Shown piece by piece: positions 29,318-56,703 of a DNA stretch of 64,000 nt. Both the position numbers and the translations under genes were made by a program. Each line of letters begins with the position of its first letter. Within the stretch, counting starts at the first letter, position 1. The stretch covers positions 1-64,000 of the forward strand of contig NZ_BMHD01000003.1 in assembly GCF_014640535.1 (NCBI RefSeq), in the 5' to 3' direction. Origin of the DNA: Cnuibacter physcomitrellae (GTDB lineage: Bacteria; Actinomycetota; Actinomycetes; Actinomycetales; Microbacteriaceae). Below the pieces are notes generated by a model. It saw only the letters and a list, made by a program, of their open reading frames with translations. It was not told the DNA's origin and ran no database searches.

Positions 29318-29734
29318 CTAAATGCGGAGGAGGCTGAGAGCGTGAAGTGACGGCCCTTCGGGCATTGCATTGCGCACGATCCGGAGTGGGACAGCGCGGA
29401 TGAGTAGTCCTAGCTGCGTTATGGGAATTGTGCCGGGCGAAAATCGTAGCGCGAGCAGCGCCACGACACCGACTATGCAGATCAAGCCGACTGCAGCGCA
29501 GCCGACTAGGCCATCCGTCACTGGCTGCTCGGTGTCACTCATCGAAGAGCCGACGTCGTCCAGGTGTGCCACCGTCATAGCGTTCATTGGCGCATCGCCA
29601 GTGCTTGTTGAGGCTGCACCGAGAAAGTGGAGGCAGAAGGCGGCGAGAACGATCGTCAGGAGACTCAGGAGACCCCCGACAACTCGATTCGGCCGCAAGG
29701 GGCGATTCACGGTCGCGGCGTCATCTCGTCGCAC
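29318..29734 (-). CDS. DUF6153-like exported protein ending LSLLRI
   Basis: A 138-residue protein: helix at about 18-40 (GGLLSLLTIVLAAFCLHFLG), a Met/His/Asp-containing loop (NAMTVAHLDDVGSS), a second helix with Cys (about 77-96) and the C-terminus LHALSLLRI. The design matches the DUF6153-like proteins at 17994, 49354 and 50631, though it is more diverged. It lies just upstream of the dsbA operon on the same strand. Membership of the family is inferred from layout. Confidence 0.5.
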   Translation of the reverse strand: MRRDDAATVNRPLRPNRVVGGLLSLLTIVLAAFCLHFLGAASTSTGDAPMNAMTVAHLDDVGSSMSDTEQPVTDGLVGCAAVGLICIVGVVALLALRFSPGTIPITQLGLLIRAVPLRIVRNAMPEGPSLHALSLLRI

Positions 29735-29813: not shown

Positions 29814-29839
29814 ATTAATACAGCAGTAGCTGTATTAAT
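29814..29839. promoter_or_regulatory. Inverted repeat ATTAATACAG-N6-CTGTATTAAT (second CmtR operator)
   Basis: Perfect 10-bp arms, AT-rich, ending 7 bp before the ATG at 29846. One of the cleanest operators in the window. It is expected to bind the CmtR-like protein encoded right after it. Confidence 0.72.
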
Positions 29840-29845
29840 TGGTTT

Positions 29846-30190
29846 ATGCTGACGCTCGCAACCCGGCTCGACGTGATGAATAGGCTCGGACGCGCGATGG
29901 CCGACCCGACTCGTTCCCGCATTCTGCTGATGCTTCTCGAAACACCGGCCTACCCTGCCGGGATTGCGGAAGCCCTTGATCTGACGCGTCAGAACGTCTC
30001 CAACCATCTGACCTGTCTCCGCGATTGCGGCATTGTCGTAGCGGAGCCGGAAGGCCGACAGAACCGGTACGAGATCGCGGATGCACACCTCGCAAAAGCG
30101 CTAAACGATCTGGTGGACGTCGTCCTGGCCATCGACACCTCAGCGCCGTGCAACGACGAGTCCTGCGCCGTGCCTGGATGCTGCGAGTGA
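29846..30190 (+). CDS. Second CmtR-type Cd/Pb-sensing repressor
   Basis: A 114-residue ArsR-family protein with Cys57, Cys61 (HLTCLRDCG) and Cys102 (APCNDESC) at the CmtR positions, plus extra Cys at the end (GCCE). DNA-binding helix LTRQNVSNHLTCL. It is not next to an exporter. The only genes downstream on its strand are a doubtful 43-codon frame and the Cys-rich micropeptide at 30343, which are therefore its probable targets. Confidence 0.88.
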   Translation: MLTLATRLDVMNRLGRAMADPTRSRILLMLLETPAYPAGIAEALDLTRQNVSNHLTCLRDCGIVVAEPEGRQNRYEIADAHLAKALNDLVDVVLAIDTSAPCNDESCAVPGCCE

Positions 30191-30318
30191 GCCCCGCGAC
30201 GGCCACGATCGAACGCATTGGCGGCGAAAGTCGGGCGGTTCTGCATAAATGCGTCCGCCCGATCGACGCTGCGCCACGTCAGCAACCACGCTGCTCGATG
30301 ACCCCAACCAACCGATGA
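30187..30318 (+). CDS. Possible 43-codon frame coupled to the second CmtR gene
   Basis: GTG 30187 overlaps the CmtR stop (GTGA) and opens 43 codons (MSPATATIERIGGESRAVLH and a Cys/Pro/Arg-rich end). There is no hydrophobic pattern or family. The overlap is the only argument for translation; it may simply be leader sequence to the micropeptide. Confidence 0.22.
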   Translation: MSPATATIERIGGESRAVLHKCVRPIDAAPRQQPRCSMTPTNR

Positions 30319-30342
30319 ATTACCGCCCCGAAGGAGAACCTC

Positions 30343-30408
30343 ATGTCTGATTGCTGCGACGGAAGCTGCTGCACCACCGAATGCACCGACGGCTGCACCT
30401 GCTGCTGA
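30343..30408 (+). CDS. Cysteine-rich metallothionein-like micropeptide (21 residues, 8 Cys)
   Basis: ATG 30343 is preceded at ideal spacing by GAAGGAG. The 21-residue product has Cys at positions 4, 5, 9, 10, 14, 18, 20 and 21, with Ser, Asp, Thr, Gly and Glu between them and no hydrophobic residue. This composition suits a cluster of Cd(II), Cu(I) or Zn(II). It ends with CTCC. It lies downstream of a CmtR-type cadmium/lead sensor with a strong operator, so metal-induced expression is likely. I do not recognise a named family; mycobacterial MymT is longer and different. It is shorter than usual gene-calling limits. Confidence 0.72.
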   Translation: MSDCCDGSCCTTECTDGCTCC

Positions 30409-30446
30409 GGTACAACCTGCGCCGTTTTCCGGCGTAGCGTGCAGCT

Positions 30447-31172
30447 ATGTGCGGACGGTTCGCGATTGACGGCAAGGTCAACGAGGCCATCACCGCCTAC
30501 GTCCACGCCGGCGGCCGACCGCAGGACTGGAGCCCTTCTGACTGGGACGCCAACTACAACGTCGCCCCCACGAACACCTCCGTGATCGTCCGCGACCGCG
30601 TCGACGACGACTCCGGCGAGCTGCGCCGCGAGGTCGACTGGGACGCGGTCTGGGACTTCCGGCCGCCATGGTTGAAGACGCCGGCGCCGCAGATCAATGC
30701 TCGGATCGAGAACCTGACCAGCTCGAACCTTTGGAAAAAGGCGTTCATCGGCCGGCGCGCGATCGTGCCGATGCTGGGCTACTACGAGTGGAAGACGATC
30801 GCAGGCAAGAAGCAGCCCTACTTCATCCACTCCCCCGCCGACTTCCTCTCCGCCGCCGGCATCTACGTGCCCGTCAAGACCGGCGACGGGTGGGATGTGC
30901 GGTTCGCAATCATCACCCGCGAGGCCCGCGACGCCTCCGGCGAGATCCACGACCGCATGCCAGCCTTCCTCACCCCCGACACCTGGGACGCGTGGCTCTC
31001 CCCCACCGACCTCGAGGACCCATCCGAGACGGTCGAGATGCTCATGGCCACATCAGAGACCGTGGCCTCTACGATCACCACGTACCCGGTGAGCAAGGCG
31101 ATCAACAACGTCCGCGCCCGGCCCGTCTGGGACGACCCCGCGCTCTTGGAGCCTGTCGAGGTGGCTGACTAG
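30447..31172 (+). CDS. SOS-response-associated peptidase (SRAP/HMCES-YedK family)
   Basis: SRAP proteins form a thiazolidine crosslink with abasic sites in single-stranded DNA through Cys2. The 241-residue protein has MCGRFAI (Cys2 after Met removal), YNVAPTNTSVIV, INARIEN (catalytic Asn and Glu region), GYYEWKT and the late HDRMPAFL with the active-site His. It is the usual length. It begins 39 bp after the Cys-rich micropeptide, so read-through from the metal-responsive promoter is possible. Confidence 0.92.
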   Translation: MCGRFAIDGKVNEAITAYVHAGGRPQDWSPSDWDANYNVAPTNTSVIVRDRVDDDSGELRREVDWDAVWDFRPPWLKTPAPQINARIENLTSSNLWKKAFIGRRAIVPMLGYYEWKTIAGKKQPYFIHSPADFLSAAGIYVPVKTGDGWDVRFAIITREARDASGEIHDRMPAFLTPDTWDAWLSPTDLEDPSETVEMLMATSETVASTITTYPVSKAINNVRARPVWDDPALLEPVEVAD

Positions 31173-42608: not shown

Positions 42609-43826
42609 ATGTCATCGCGCAATCGCAGTTCCCCCACCGCATCAGCTCATCCCATTTCGCCTCGAATTCCGTCACTTGATGGTCTGCGCGCGTTGGCAGT
42701 CTTGGTGGTGTTCGTCGGTCACGGCCGCACCGACCAGGGGCAATGGCCCGGCTATGCCGGGGTGACGGTATTTTTCTTTCTCAGCGGCTTTCTCATTACG
42801 ACCCTTCTCCGCCGCGAGTTGGAGAAGTCGGGGCGAATCCAATTGACCCGGTTTTATCTTCGACGAACGTTCCGCATTCTGCCGGCGGCGTACTTCACGA
42901 TCGTGGTCTCGTTAGCCTTGGCGACAGCAGGCCTGCTGCCCTCGTCAATCAGCGGCTGGGGAGTCCTTTCGGAGTTCCTGAACTACACGAACTACTACAT
43001 CGTCGCGAGGGGATACGAGAGCCTTCCGCCGGAGACGAGCCAGATGTGGTCGCTCGCGGTTGAAGAGCAGTATTACCTCGTCGTACCGGTGGCGTTGTTG
43101 GTGGCCTACCGCCTAGGTGCCCGACGCACACTGGTGGGCTGGTGTTTGGTCAGCGTGGGTCTTCTGATTGCGGGATGGCGGGTGTTCCTCGGGCTCAACG
43201 GTGCGGATTTCGATCGGCTCTACTTCTCGACCGACACCCGTATCGACAGCATCTTGTGGGGTGCGGCGTTAGCCCTTCTGATGAATCCGGTGATGGGCGA
43301 CGCAGCTGCTCTCAGGGGCCGTCTCGTACGATGGATCGCACGTCATCTGGGCTTGATCGCTGCTGTCGCCATTGGGACGCTCGTGTTTAGCGCCGTCGTG
43401 CCTGCGTTGTCGTTCCGCTTGAGCGTCGCGACCACGCTTCAGTGCCTTGCTCTGGTCCCGATCTTCTGGTTCGTCATCACTCGCCCGTCTGGCGTTATCG
43501 GCAAGCTGCTGAACAGCCGGGTGCTTGTGCACCTGGGTGTGCTGTCTTTCTCGTTCTACCTGTTGCACAAGATCGTGCTGGCAGTGATCGGCCCGCTGAT
43601 CGACGCCCCGATCCTCACCGACAGCATCTCGCTGCTTGTGTCTGTGTTGGTCTCGCAACTCGTCTTCTGGAGCATTGAGCGTCCCTTCACCAACCTGCGG
43701 GTACGGATAGAACGTCGATTTCTCTCCCGAGCGGCGACGAGAACTGGGAATAGCGGGGCGGCGCAGCCACTTACACACCTTACCCCTAGGGGGTATAGTG
43801 GAATGGGCAGGAGAATTCATGGATAA
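42609..43826 (+). CDS. Acyltransferase-3 family membrane protein (OafA/YrhL-like)
   Basis: A 405-residue multi-pass acyltransferase that O-acylates surface glycans or lipids. It shows SLDGLRALAVLVVFVGHGR (catalytic His region), GVTVFFFLSGFLITTLL, FYLRRTFRILPAAY and MWSLAVEEQYYLVVP. ATG 42609 starts directly before the family core; a longer in-frame start is not favoured. The last 15 codons run through the copB operator, so its natural end may once have been earlier. Substrate unknown. Confidence 0.85.
   Translation: MSSRNRSSPTASAHPISPRIPSLDGLRALAVLVVFVGHGRTDQGQWPGYAGVTVFFFLSGFLITTLLRRELEKSGRIQLTRFYLRRTFRILPAAYFTIVVSLALATAGLLPSSISGWGVLSEFLNYTNYYIVARGYESLPPETSQMWSLAVEEQYYLVVPVALLVAYRLGARRTLVGWCLVSVGLLIAGWRVFLGLNGADFDRLYFSTDTRIDSILWGAALALLMNPVMGDAAALRGRLVRWIARHLGLIAAVAIGTLVFSAVVPALSFRLSVATTLQCLALVPIFWFVITRPSGVIGKLLNSRVLVHLGVLSFSFYLLHKIVLAVIGPLIDAPILTDSISLLVSVLVSQLVFWSIERPFTNLRVRIERRFLSRAATRTGNSGAAQPLTHLTPRGYSGMGRRIHG
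43780..43796. promoter_or_regulatory. CsoR operator upstream of copB
   Basis: TACCCC-TAG-GGGGTA inverted repeat, 23 bp before the copB ATG at 43819 and inside the 3' end of the acyltransferase gene. It should be bound by the CsoR encoded downstream of copB. Confidence 0.75.
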
Positions 43827-55036: not shown

Positions 55037-56703
55037 GTGTCGAAAGTGGAATTGTTCGCGGATATCCGCCGTGCCTCGCGCGTCGACGGGCTATCGGTGC
55101 GCGCGTTGGCAGACAGGTTCGGGGTCCACCGTCGCACGGTGCGGCAGGCCTTGGCGTCGCCAATTCCGCCGCCGCGGAAGATACCGTCACGGATGTCTCC
55201 ACGGCTGGGGCCGTACAAGGCGGTGATCGACGCGATGCTCACTCAGGATCTGGACGCGCCTCGTAAGCAGCGGCACACGGCGACAAGGGTTCTCGCGCGG
55301 CTGGTCGACGGCACGAAGCGGCGGGACTGTCGTACTCGACGGTCCGCGACTACGTGCGCGTACGTCGTGCCCAGATCGATGCCGCAGCCGGGCGCCGCGT
55401 CGAGGTGTTCGTCCCACAGGAACACGCACCTGGTGAGGAAGCCGAAGTCGATTTCGGCGAGGTCTGGGTGATCCTTGGCGGGGTGAAAACGAAGTGCCAC
55501 ATGTTCACGTTCCGGCTCTCGCACTCGGGGAAGGCGGTGCACCGGGTGTACTCGACGCAATCGCAGGAAGCGTTCCTGGAAGGACATATCGACGCGTTCG
55601 ACGAGATAGGTGGGATCCCGACCCGGCACATCCGGTACGACAATCTCACTGCCGCGGTACAGACGGTGCTGTATGGGAAGGGCCGTAGCCGAGTAGAGAA
55701 CGACCGATGGGTACTGTTCCGCTCGCACTACGGGTTCGACTCGTTCTATTGCCAGCCCGGAATCGACGGCGCCCACGAGAAGGGTGGCGTCGAAGGCGAA
55801 GTTGGTCGGTTTCGCCGCACCTGGCTGTCGCCGATGCCGGTCATCGACTCGCTCGCCGAGTTGAACGAGCAGATCCGCCGGTGGGACGCCCGCGACAACG
55901 AGCGACGCATCAACACCCGGATCCGCACTGTCGGGCAAGACTTCATCGACGAACAAGCCCGCCTTACGCCATTGCCAGGCGAGCGGTTCGATCCTGGCCT
56001 GGTGCTCTACCCGCGGGTAGACCGCTCGAGCCTGATCACCGTGCGGATGGCGAGGTACTCCGTGCCCGCCCGTCTGATCGGGCGGAAGGTGCGGGTCTCG
56101 TTGCGGGCGTCTGAACTCGTGGTGTTCGACGGCCACGCCGAGGTCGCTCGGCACGAGCGGGTCGTGGCCCGCGGCGGGGAGTCGATCAACCTTGACCACT
56201 ACCTCGAGGTCCTCAGGCGCAAGCCCGGCGCGTTGCCCGGGTCCACCGCGCTGGCCCGTGCACGCGAAGCCGGCGTGTTCACGACAGCGCATGACGCGTT
56301 CTGGCAGCAAGCGCGGAAGGTCGATGGCGACAGCGCCGGCACAAGGGCTCTGATCGATGTGCTCCTGCTCCACAGGACCATGCGAACCGTCGACGTGATC
56401 GCGGGGATCCGTGCCGCCCTCACGGTCGGGGCGGTGTCCGCCGACGTCGTCGCGGTCGAAGCCCGACTGTACGCCGCCGGGCCCGAGTCAGACCGTCATC
56501 GCGTTGAACAACCACGACGTGACGTGCAGCGAGTTGTCAGCCTGACCCAGCGTCGCCTCATGGATCCGGCCGCGGTGATCGCCGGACTCCCAGCCGACCG
56601 GCGGCCACTGCCATCCGTCGCGCACTACGACGAACTCCTTAACCGACGTTCCGAACCAGAACCGCCGGTCACCGATGAGAGAGAAGGAATCGCCGGATCA
56701 TGA
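55037..56703 (+). pseudogene. istA: IstA transposase, frameshifted near 55310
   Basis: IstA is the DDE transposase of IS21. The N-terminal helix-turn-helix (LSVRALADRFGVHRRTVRQA) is in one frame up to LARLVD. One base is missing at about 55309-55312, and the protein resumes in the next frame as AGLSYSTVRDYVRVRRAQI, followed by the DDE core EEAEVDFGEVWV, YDNLTAAV and HEKGGVEGEVGRFR. The rest to 56703 is intact. Either the element cannot move by itself or this is a read error. The stop overlaps istB (ATGA). Confidence 0.82.

Follow-up and report, generated by a model that had tools for sequence, protein, structure and literature searches.

Which gene does a cadmium- and lead-sensing repressor serve when no exporter gene adjoins it, and could a frame of 21 codons be the answer? 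This question is raised by the window (the whole stretch of 64,000 nucleotides that was analysed), which corresponds in PLSDB to plasmid unnamed1 (NZ_CP020716.1) of Cnuibacter physcomitrellae XA(T), a member of Microbacteriaceae. In an earlier note, a short Cys-rich frame was described downstream of a CmtR-type repressor gene and was read as a metal-chelating micropeptide controlled by Cd/Pb. The two genes and the ribosome-binding site are as follows.

29846-30190, plus strand: cmtR, gene of a Cd(II)/Pb(II)-sensing ArsR/SmtB repressor with Cys57, Cys61 and Cys102 and an extra Cys-rich tail, CNDESCAVPGCCE (NF047906, 2jsc, WP_085021700.1)
30330-30336, plus strand: Shine-Dalgarno sequence GAAGGAG, 6 nt ahead of the peptide ATG, read from the sequence
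30343-30408, plus strand: 21-codon, 8-Cys micro-metallothionein-like gene, MSDCCDGSCCTTECTDGCTCC (translation, 15 further copies, pN/pS 0.30)

The frame of MSDCCDGSCCTTECTDGCTCC starts with the ATG at 30343 and ends with the stop TGA at 30406-30408. Translation placed its eight Cys residues at positions 4, 5, 9, 10, 14, 18, 20 and 21 (CCx3CCx3Cx3CxCC), exactly where the earlier note had put them, and the GAAGGAG site which it had claimed ahead of the ATG was located as well. The peptide is acidic (calculated pI 4.05), has a mass of 2.14 kDa, consists of Cys to 38% and contains no Lys, Arg, His or aromatic residues. Its size, its Cys richness and the absence of aromatics are those of a metallothionein in the broad sense, with three CC motifs and one CxC motif. 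Zero genes are listed in PLSDB between cmtR and the SRAP gene, and the 21-codon gene is therefore unannotated, as had been expected for a frame that gene callers would skip. Being unannotated and only 21 codons long, it could be taken for a chance open reading frame. However, none of 60 dinucleotide shuffles of the window contained an ORF (15-60 aa) in which Cys numbered 6 or more and made up at least 30% of the residues, while the real window held two, i.e., 30343-30408 and an implausible TTG frame near 43525; moreover, 15 further conserved copies were found, nearly all with purine-rich Shine-Dalgarno-like sites ahead of them. A chance origin was ruled out by this conservation, its probability being next to nil, and 30343-30408 is a real gene.

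The relatives were collected stepwise. When 250 family genomes were searched with this one peptide, five clear relatives emerged, all 21 residues long, with Cys in register and a purine-rich ribosome-binding site. With the profile built from these five, 13 of 400 family genomes, belonging to 8 of 85 genera, yielded 15 loci, and a genus-level search contributed one more, so that the family comprises 16 loci in 14 genomes and eight genera of Microbacteriaceae, with members of 20-22 residues. The weak single-sequence matches L014 and L016-L022 were discarded as they had no corresponding short Cys-rich gene, and the order-level matches L287-L289 were discarded as they were located within long open frames. 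The earlier note had made its reading depend on the Cys pattern being conserved among relatives, and such conservation was found: the full set of eight Cys is in register at 15 of the 16 loci, over eight genera. Among the 14 distinct sequences, Met1 and the Cys residues at 4, 5, 9, 10, 14, 18 and 20 are invariant, Cys21 is absent from L285 (= L271) alone, and most remaining positions are variable. The mean pN/pS across the family is 0.30, indicating purifying selection; the minor-base fractions at codon positions 1, 2 and 3 are 0.09, 0.12 and 0.29, the third being two to three times the others, and switching between TGC and TGT was seen at Cys codons. It is therefore the amino acids on which selection acts.

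The family is rare, with members in 13 of the 400 sampled family genomes, and it is apparently restricted to Microbacteriaceae, as judged from genome samples and a loose first-look filter: when 396 genomes of the phylum and 347 of the order were searched with profiles, the only convincing member was that of the window. Scans with the Cys spacing only, genome-wide and viral, carry no information on spread beyond Microbacteriaceae, since apparently low-complexity poly-Cys frames were among the matches listed. The statement in the earlier note that no named family was known held, as no family model matches the peptide. None of 14 members matched a Pfam model, even at E 10, and NCBIfam gave no match for the peptide of the window; the power of HMMs on sequences of 21 residues is small. 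The peptide profile had no meaningful match in PDB, and no paper describing the 21-residue peptide was found in the open-licence PMC literature. A tblastn search of plasmids with the 21-mer was uninformative, for it did not match even the plasmid record of the window itself.

Conserved elements also surround the peptide gene. A stable hairpin lies 5-14 nt past the stop in 11 of 15 loci, with energies of -22 to -37 kcal/mol. Its sequence varies between loci while the arrangement is kept, and the peptide is therefore usually the last gene of its transcript and not a leader peptide. The counterpart in the window is as follows.

30421-30459, plus strand: weak hairpin after the stop, -18.5 kcal/mol, overlapping the SRAP gene start

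Unlike the hairpins of the relatives, it is not convincing as a terminator, and the terminator scan of the window found none. A second element, the stem-loop CCRCCCG-N3-ACAA-CGG.. (CCRCCCG-loop-CGGRYGG), stands just ahead of the Shine-Dalgarno site, about 40 nt before the ATG, in 11 of 16 loci (L273, L275, L276, L278-L282, L285, L286 and L356), including loci with CDF or without cmtR directly upstream. Its pairing holds in 89% of cells in the eight rows counted, and covariation is only suggestive, a single pair being changed on both sides in 2 sequences. In most copies, a cassette would consist of leader stem-loop, Shine-Dalgarno site, 21 codons and terminator hairpin. The conserved stem-loop could mean that the 21 codons form a leader peptide with a regulatory role, or belong to a structured RNA, instead of encoding a working protein. 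However, the downstream genes are unrelated and none is conserved, a hairpin mostly follows right after the stop, the substitutions are mostly synonymous with Cys fixed, Rfam has no match for the stretch holding the peptide, and the copy of the window lacks the stem-loop. A leader or RNA function is accordingly very improbable, and the peptide itself is regarded as the functional product.

The neighbouring gene is a CmtR, in agreement with the earlier note. The product of 29846-30190 scores 173.5 bits against the NCBIfam CmtR equivalog NF047906 (cut-off 150), its best PDB match is 2jsc, which is Rv1994c of M. tuberculosis (E 1.2e-35), and Cys57, Cys61 and Cys102 are in register with 2jsc in a gapless alignment. 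Three peptide-linked CmtRs, including that of the window, were scored against the equivalog and all are above the cut-off. Many CmtRs of Micrococcales, including 29846-30190, end with the tail PCxDxSCxVPGCC, which is absent in the CmtR of M. tuberculosis; metal ligands beyond Cys102 are possible in this Cys-rich tail. A further element precedes the gene.

29814-29839, no strand: putative CmtR operator, a perfect inverted repeat of 11 bp that overlaps the likely cmtR -10 region

This repeat reads ATTAATACAGC-AGTA-GCTGTATTAAT, and none of 500 shuffles of the stretch upstream of cmtR gave such a repeat. The earlier note was right in calling it perfect but had given its length as 10 bp. A related core, CAGYNNNNRCTGTATAGTCA, was recognized by eye upstream of cmtR in most relatives, finishing a few bases ahead of the cmtR ATG; the palindromes of the relatives are shorter and mostly not individually significant. 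By eye, the core overlaps a -10 box, and this points to a cmtR mRNA without a leader. No promoter reached the threshold of the automatic scan, and a separate one for the peptide was likewise not found. A second operator-like palindrome, TACAGACGGTGCTGTA, is present at 55658-55673, with one mismatch against the cmtR operator half-sites. A divergent hypothetical frame of 138 aa (29318-29734, minus strand), with probable membrane segments by eye, shares the upstream region in which the operator lies. This frame is absent from the PLSDB gene table and is matched by neither Pfam nor NCBIfam, and it could be another target of CmtR.

How constant the company of CmtR and peptide is was read from the other loci. 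In 12 of the 16, cmtR is directly upstream on the same strand, the gap being 33-84 nt at ten of them and 152-164 nt at two. Four copies (L277, L284, L286 and L356) are not directly behind CmtR, and CmtR control is therefore not universal. L286 has the order CmtR-like gene (49% identical, 112.6 bits, under the cut-off), CDF transporter (PF01545) and peptide, and no regulator gene is directly upstream of the peptide at L284 and L356. At L277, the peptide is preceded by an arsenate-reductase-like gene (LMWPc; under the NCBIfam equivalog cut-offs), with a divergent ArsR gene and an aquaporin-like gene in the surroundings, and at L273 a divergent gene, judged by its sequence to encode a heavy-metal P-type ATPase, lies upstream. 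The contexts of L277 and L273 would suit a thiol sink for Cu(I), As(III) or Hg(II), or else a redox peptide, the link to a Cd/Pb sensor then being incidental, and small fungal metallothioneins, e.g., the 25-residue one of PDB 1t2y, bind copper. However, CmtR is paired with three quarters of the copies, and the window is located in a cadmium gene cluster: a complete CadA-type ATPase gene, accompanied by its own CmtR, is found about 4 kb away, and within about 7 kb there are genes for a cadmium resistance transporter and for CcdA/TlpA/thioredoxin-like proteins, all on the other strand. A role with another ion is regarded as unlikely but not far-fetched, and a peptide under a Cd/Pb sensor is preferred.

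In the converse search, short Cys-rich frames were looked for downstream of the cmtR loci that had been fetched from 200 genomes of the family, 129 of the order and 149 of the phylum. The peptide was found behind cmtR only at L311 (= L011), which was already known, and in the cmtR loci that were read further, CDF or P-type ATPase exporters came next. CmtR-like genes of any kind are present in just 93 of the 200 family genomes. In the CmtR tree, which was built on few columns and has many open forks, the peptide-linked CmtRs do not form one clade, at least three changes being implied by the starred branches; the pairing of cmtR and peptide has therefore been made or broken more than once. The CmtR of the window nests among CmtRs of cmtR-CDF operons.

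The gap of 152 bases between cmtR and the peptide gene in the window explains why the repressor is without an adjoining exporter, since it holds the start and end fragments, in different frames, of a deleted gene for a CDF (cation diffusion facilitator) exporter.

30187-30270, plus strand: relic, start of the CDF exporter gene, overlapping the cmtR end, VSPATATIERIGGESRAVLHKCVRPIDA
30231-30262, plus strand: inverted repeat TCGGGCGG/CCGCCCGA, located within the CDF relic
30270-30305, plus strand: relic, 3' end of that CDF gene, read in a different frame, CATSATTLLDDP (alignment with CDF C-termini)

The first fragment, VSPATATIERIGGESRAVLHKCVRPIDA, opens with GTG at 30187 and aligns with the start of the CDF of L290, which lies behind the most similar CmtR found (90% identical to that of the window), with a score of 48 that none of 2000 shuffles reached. 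Matches to other CDFs are weaker, the score being reached by 1 (L292), 40 (L291), 52 (L293) and 716 (L286) of 2000 shuffles. In the second fragment, CATSATTLLDD (CATSxxxLLDD) corresponds to CATSVGMLLD at CDF C-termini; this fragment matches the CDFs of L286, L290, L291 and L292 at the corresponding position, with 0-1 of 1000 shuffles doing as well. By the alignment positions in L290, about 180 codons are missing between the two fragments. The window therefore descends from a cmtR-CDF arrangement, and by analogy with L286 the ancestral order was probably cmtR, CDF exporter, peptide. As the CDF gene was deleted while the peptide with its ribosome-binding site was kept, the peptide has outlived its exporter. 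The claim that the repressor adjoins no exporter is thus true of the window today, yet what lies in the gap is the remnant of one. The argument built on it, namely that the peptide should be the target for want of an exporter, led to an outcome that stands but was incomplete, because a deleted CDF gene lies between the two and L286 still has CmtR-like gene, CDF and peptide in this order. At the second long-gap locus, L283 (about 164 nt), the frames VTALETAETARLTHRGLRL and FTLAHNVAKGIVSG...LLEDDEDD were seen; their alignment with CDF was not significant, and this gap may be a second CDF relic.

The former presence of an exporter raises the possibility that the peptide is a metallochaperone or accessory subunit which passes metal to an exporter, ancestrally the CDF and now the nearby CadA or other pumps. 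The gene order of L286 and the CDF ruin immediately before the peptide in the window would agree with this. In M. tuberculosis, cmtR heads the cadmium-induced cmtR-pacL2-ctpG operon, in which a CmtR-family sensor likewise comes first and a small metal-handling protein next; PacL2 is membrane-anchored, contains Ala/Glu repeats and serves a P-type ATPase, being required for the pump (PMC13043812). In contrast, the peptide has 21 residues with neither a transmembrane segment like the anchor of PacL nor Ala/Glu repeats, and mostly no pump gene lies between it and cmtR or behind it. Sequestration is favoured over chaperoning because of the dense Cys residues (eight in 21 fit a multi-metal cluster better than single-ion transfer), the ten loci in which the peptide follows cmtR at 33-84 nt with no exporter gene between, and the persistence of the peptide after loss of the exporter, which would mean that sequestration is valuable without a pump of its own. 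A chaperone function is considered improbable.

CmtR and the peptide, as a Cd/Pb-inducible thiolate micro-metallothionein, probably form a two-part unit for metal detoxification, as far as can be judged from sequence. CmtR would occupy the palindrome at 29814-29839 and repress its own promoter. Binding of Cd(II) or Pb(II) at Cys57, Cys61 and Cys102 would free it from the palindrome, and cmtR and the peptide would then be on one transcript, the strong Shine-Dalgarno site raising the output of peptide above that of the repressor. The acidic peptide would wrap the soft metal through the thiolates of CCx3CCx3Cx3CxCC into a small metal-thiolate cluster, perhaps with two or three divalent ions per peptide, and the bound metal would be retained in the cytoplasm, detoxification being the expected phenotype. 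In the window, read-through across the 152-nt gap could be hindered by the relic and the inverted repeat in it. We infer Cd/Pb control of the peptide, and the metal range may be wider, as L277 is behind an arsenate-reductase-like gene and two copies have no adjoining regulator. On balance, though with less assurance, the copies seem to represent an undescribed family of gene-encoded micro-metallothionein cassettes, among the smallest anywhere, which in Microbacteriaceae has become joined to genes for CmtR, CDF and arsenic-related functions and can outlive the exporter.

Control of metallothioneins by ArsR/SmtB repressors is established in the BxmR-BmtA operon of Oscillatoria and the SmtB-SmtA divergon of Synechococcus, each of which combines, like the unit proposed here, a metal-sensing ArsR/SmtB repressor and a small Cys-rich metal-sequestering protein (PMC8790569). 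The operon arrangement of BxmR-BmtA, with the repressor gene directly beside the peptide gene, recurs at 12 of the 16 loci, whereas SmtB-SmtA is divergent and the cmtR-peptide unit, with CmtR as its repressor, is co-directional. Homology of the peptide to BmtA or SmtA is not supported, there being no Pfam match. The metallothioneins BmtA and SmtA have more than twice the length of the 21-residue peptide, and His is used in them in addition to Cys. Judged by Pfam, the peptide unit would be analogous to these systems and not a relative of them.

Only two bacterial metallothioneins had an investigated function as of 2020, and MymT, the copper metallothionein of M. tuberculosis, is needed for copper detoxification (PMC7387436); those studied are SmtA, MymT and Pseudomonas MT (PMC11599972). 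The peptide is similar to MymT in being a small Cys-rich actinobacterial protein. MymT is longer and has another Cys layout. The metallothionein of PDB 1t2y (25 residues, 7 Cys) is the nearest in size and Cys density among those checked, but it has CxC-type spacing, is eukaryotic, presumably from Neurospora crassa, and does not match the peptide profile. The peptide thus appears to belong to a new sequence family, an extreme size variant of the known repressor-metallothionein systems, and it most likely ranks among the smallest metallothionein-like proteins for metal sequestration that are encoded by bacteria. If it is true that a ribosomal peptide of 21 residues suffices, such genes are systematically missed, because they are under the length limits of gene callers and because their products, lacking Lys, Arg and aromatics, are neither cut into useful peptides by trypsin nor visible in the UV. 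The locus would then also offer a minimal genetically encoded Cd/Pb chelator together with its sensor, and a natural experiment on whether sequestration is protective by itself once the exporter is gone.

Other CmtR-like genes occur in the same genome (G000). Five further ones (L002-L006) are all on contigs C3, which is the plasmid of the window, and C4, while the large contig C1 has no CmtR-like gene at E < 1e-20. At L328, the gene behind an exporter-type cmtR opens with MSDECCGVDEP, and L003 and L004 are similar by eye. The start of the peptide, M[ST][DE]CC, resembles these Cys-Cys starts, and a common origin is possible.
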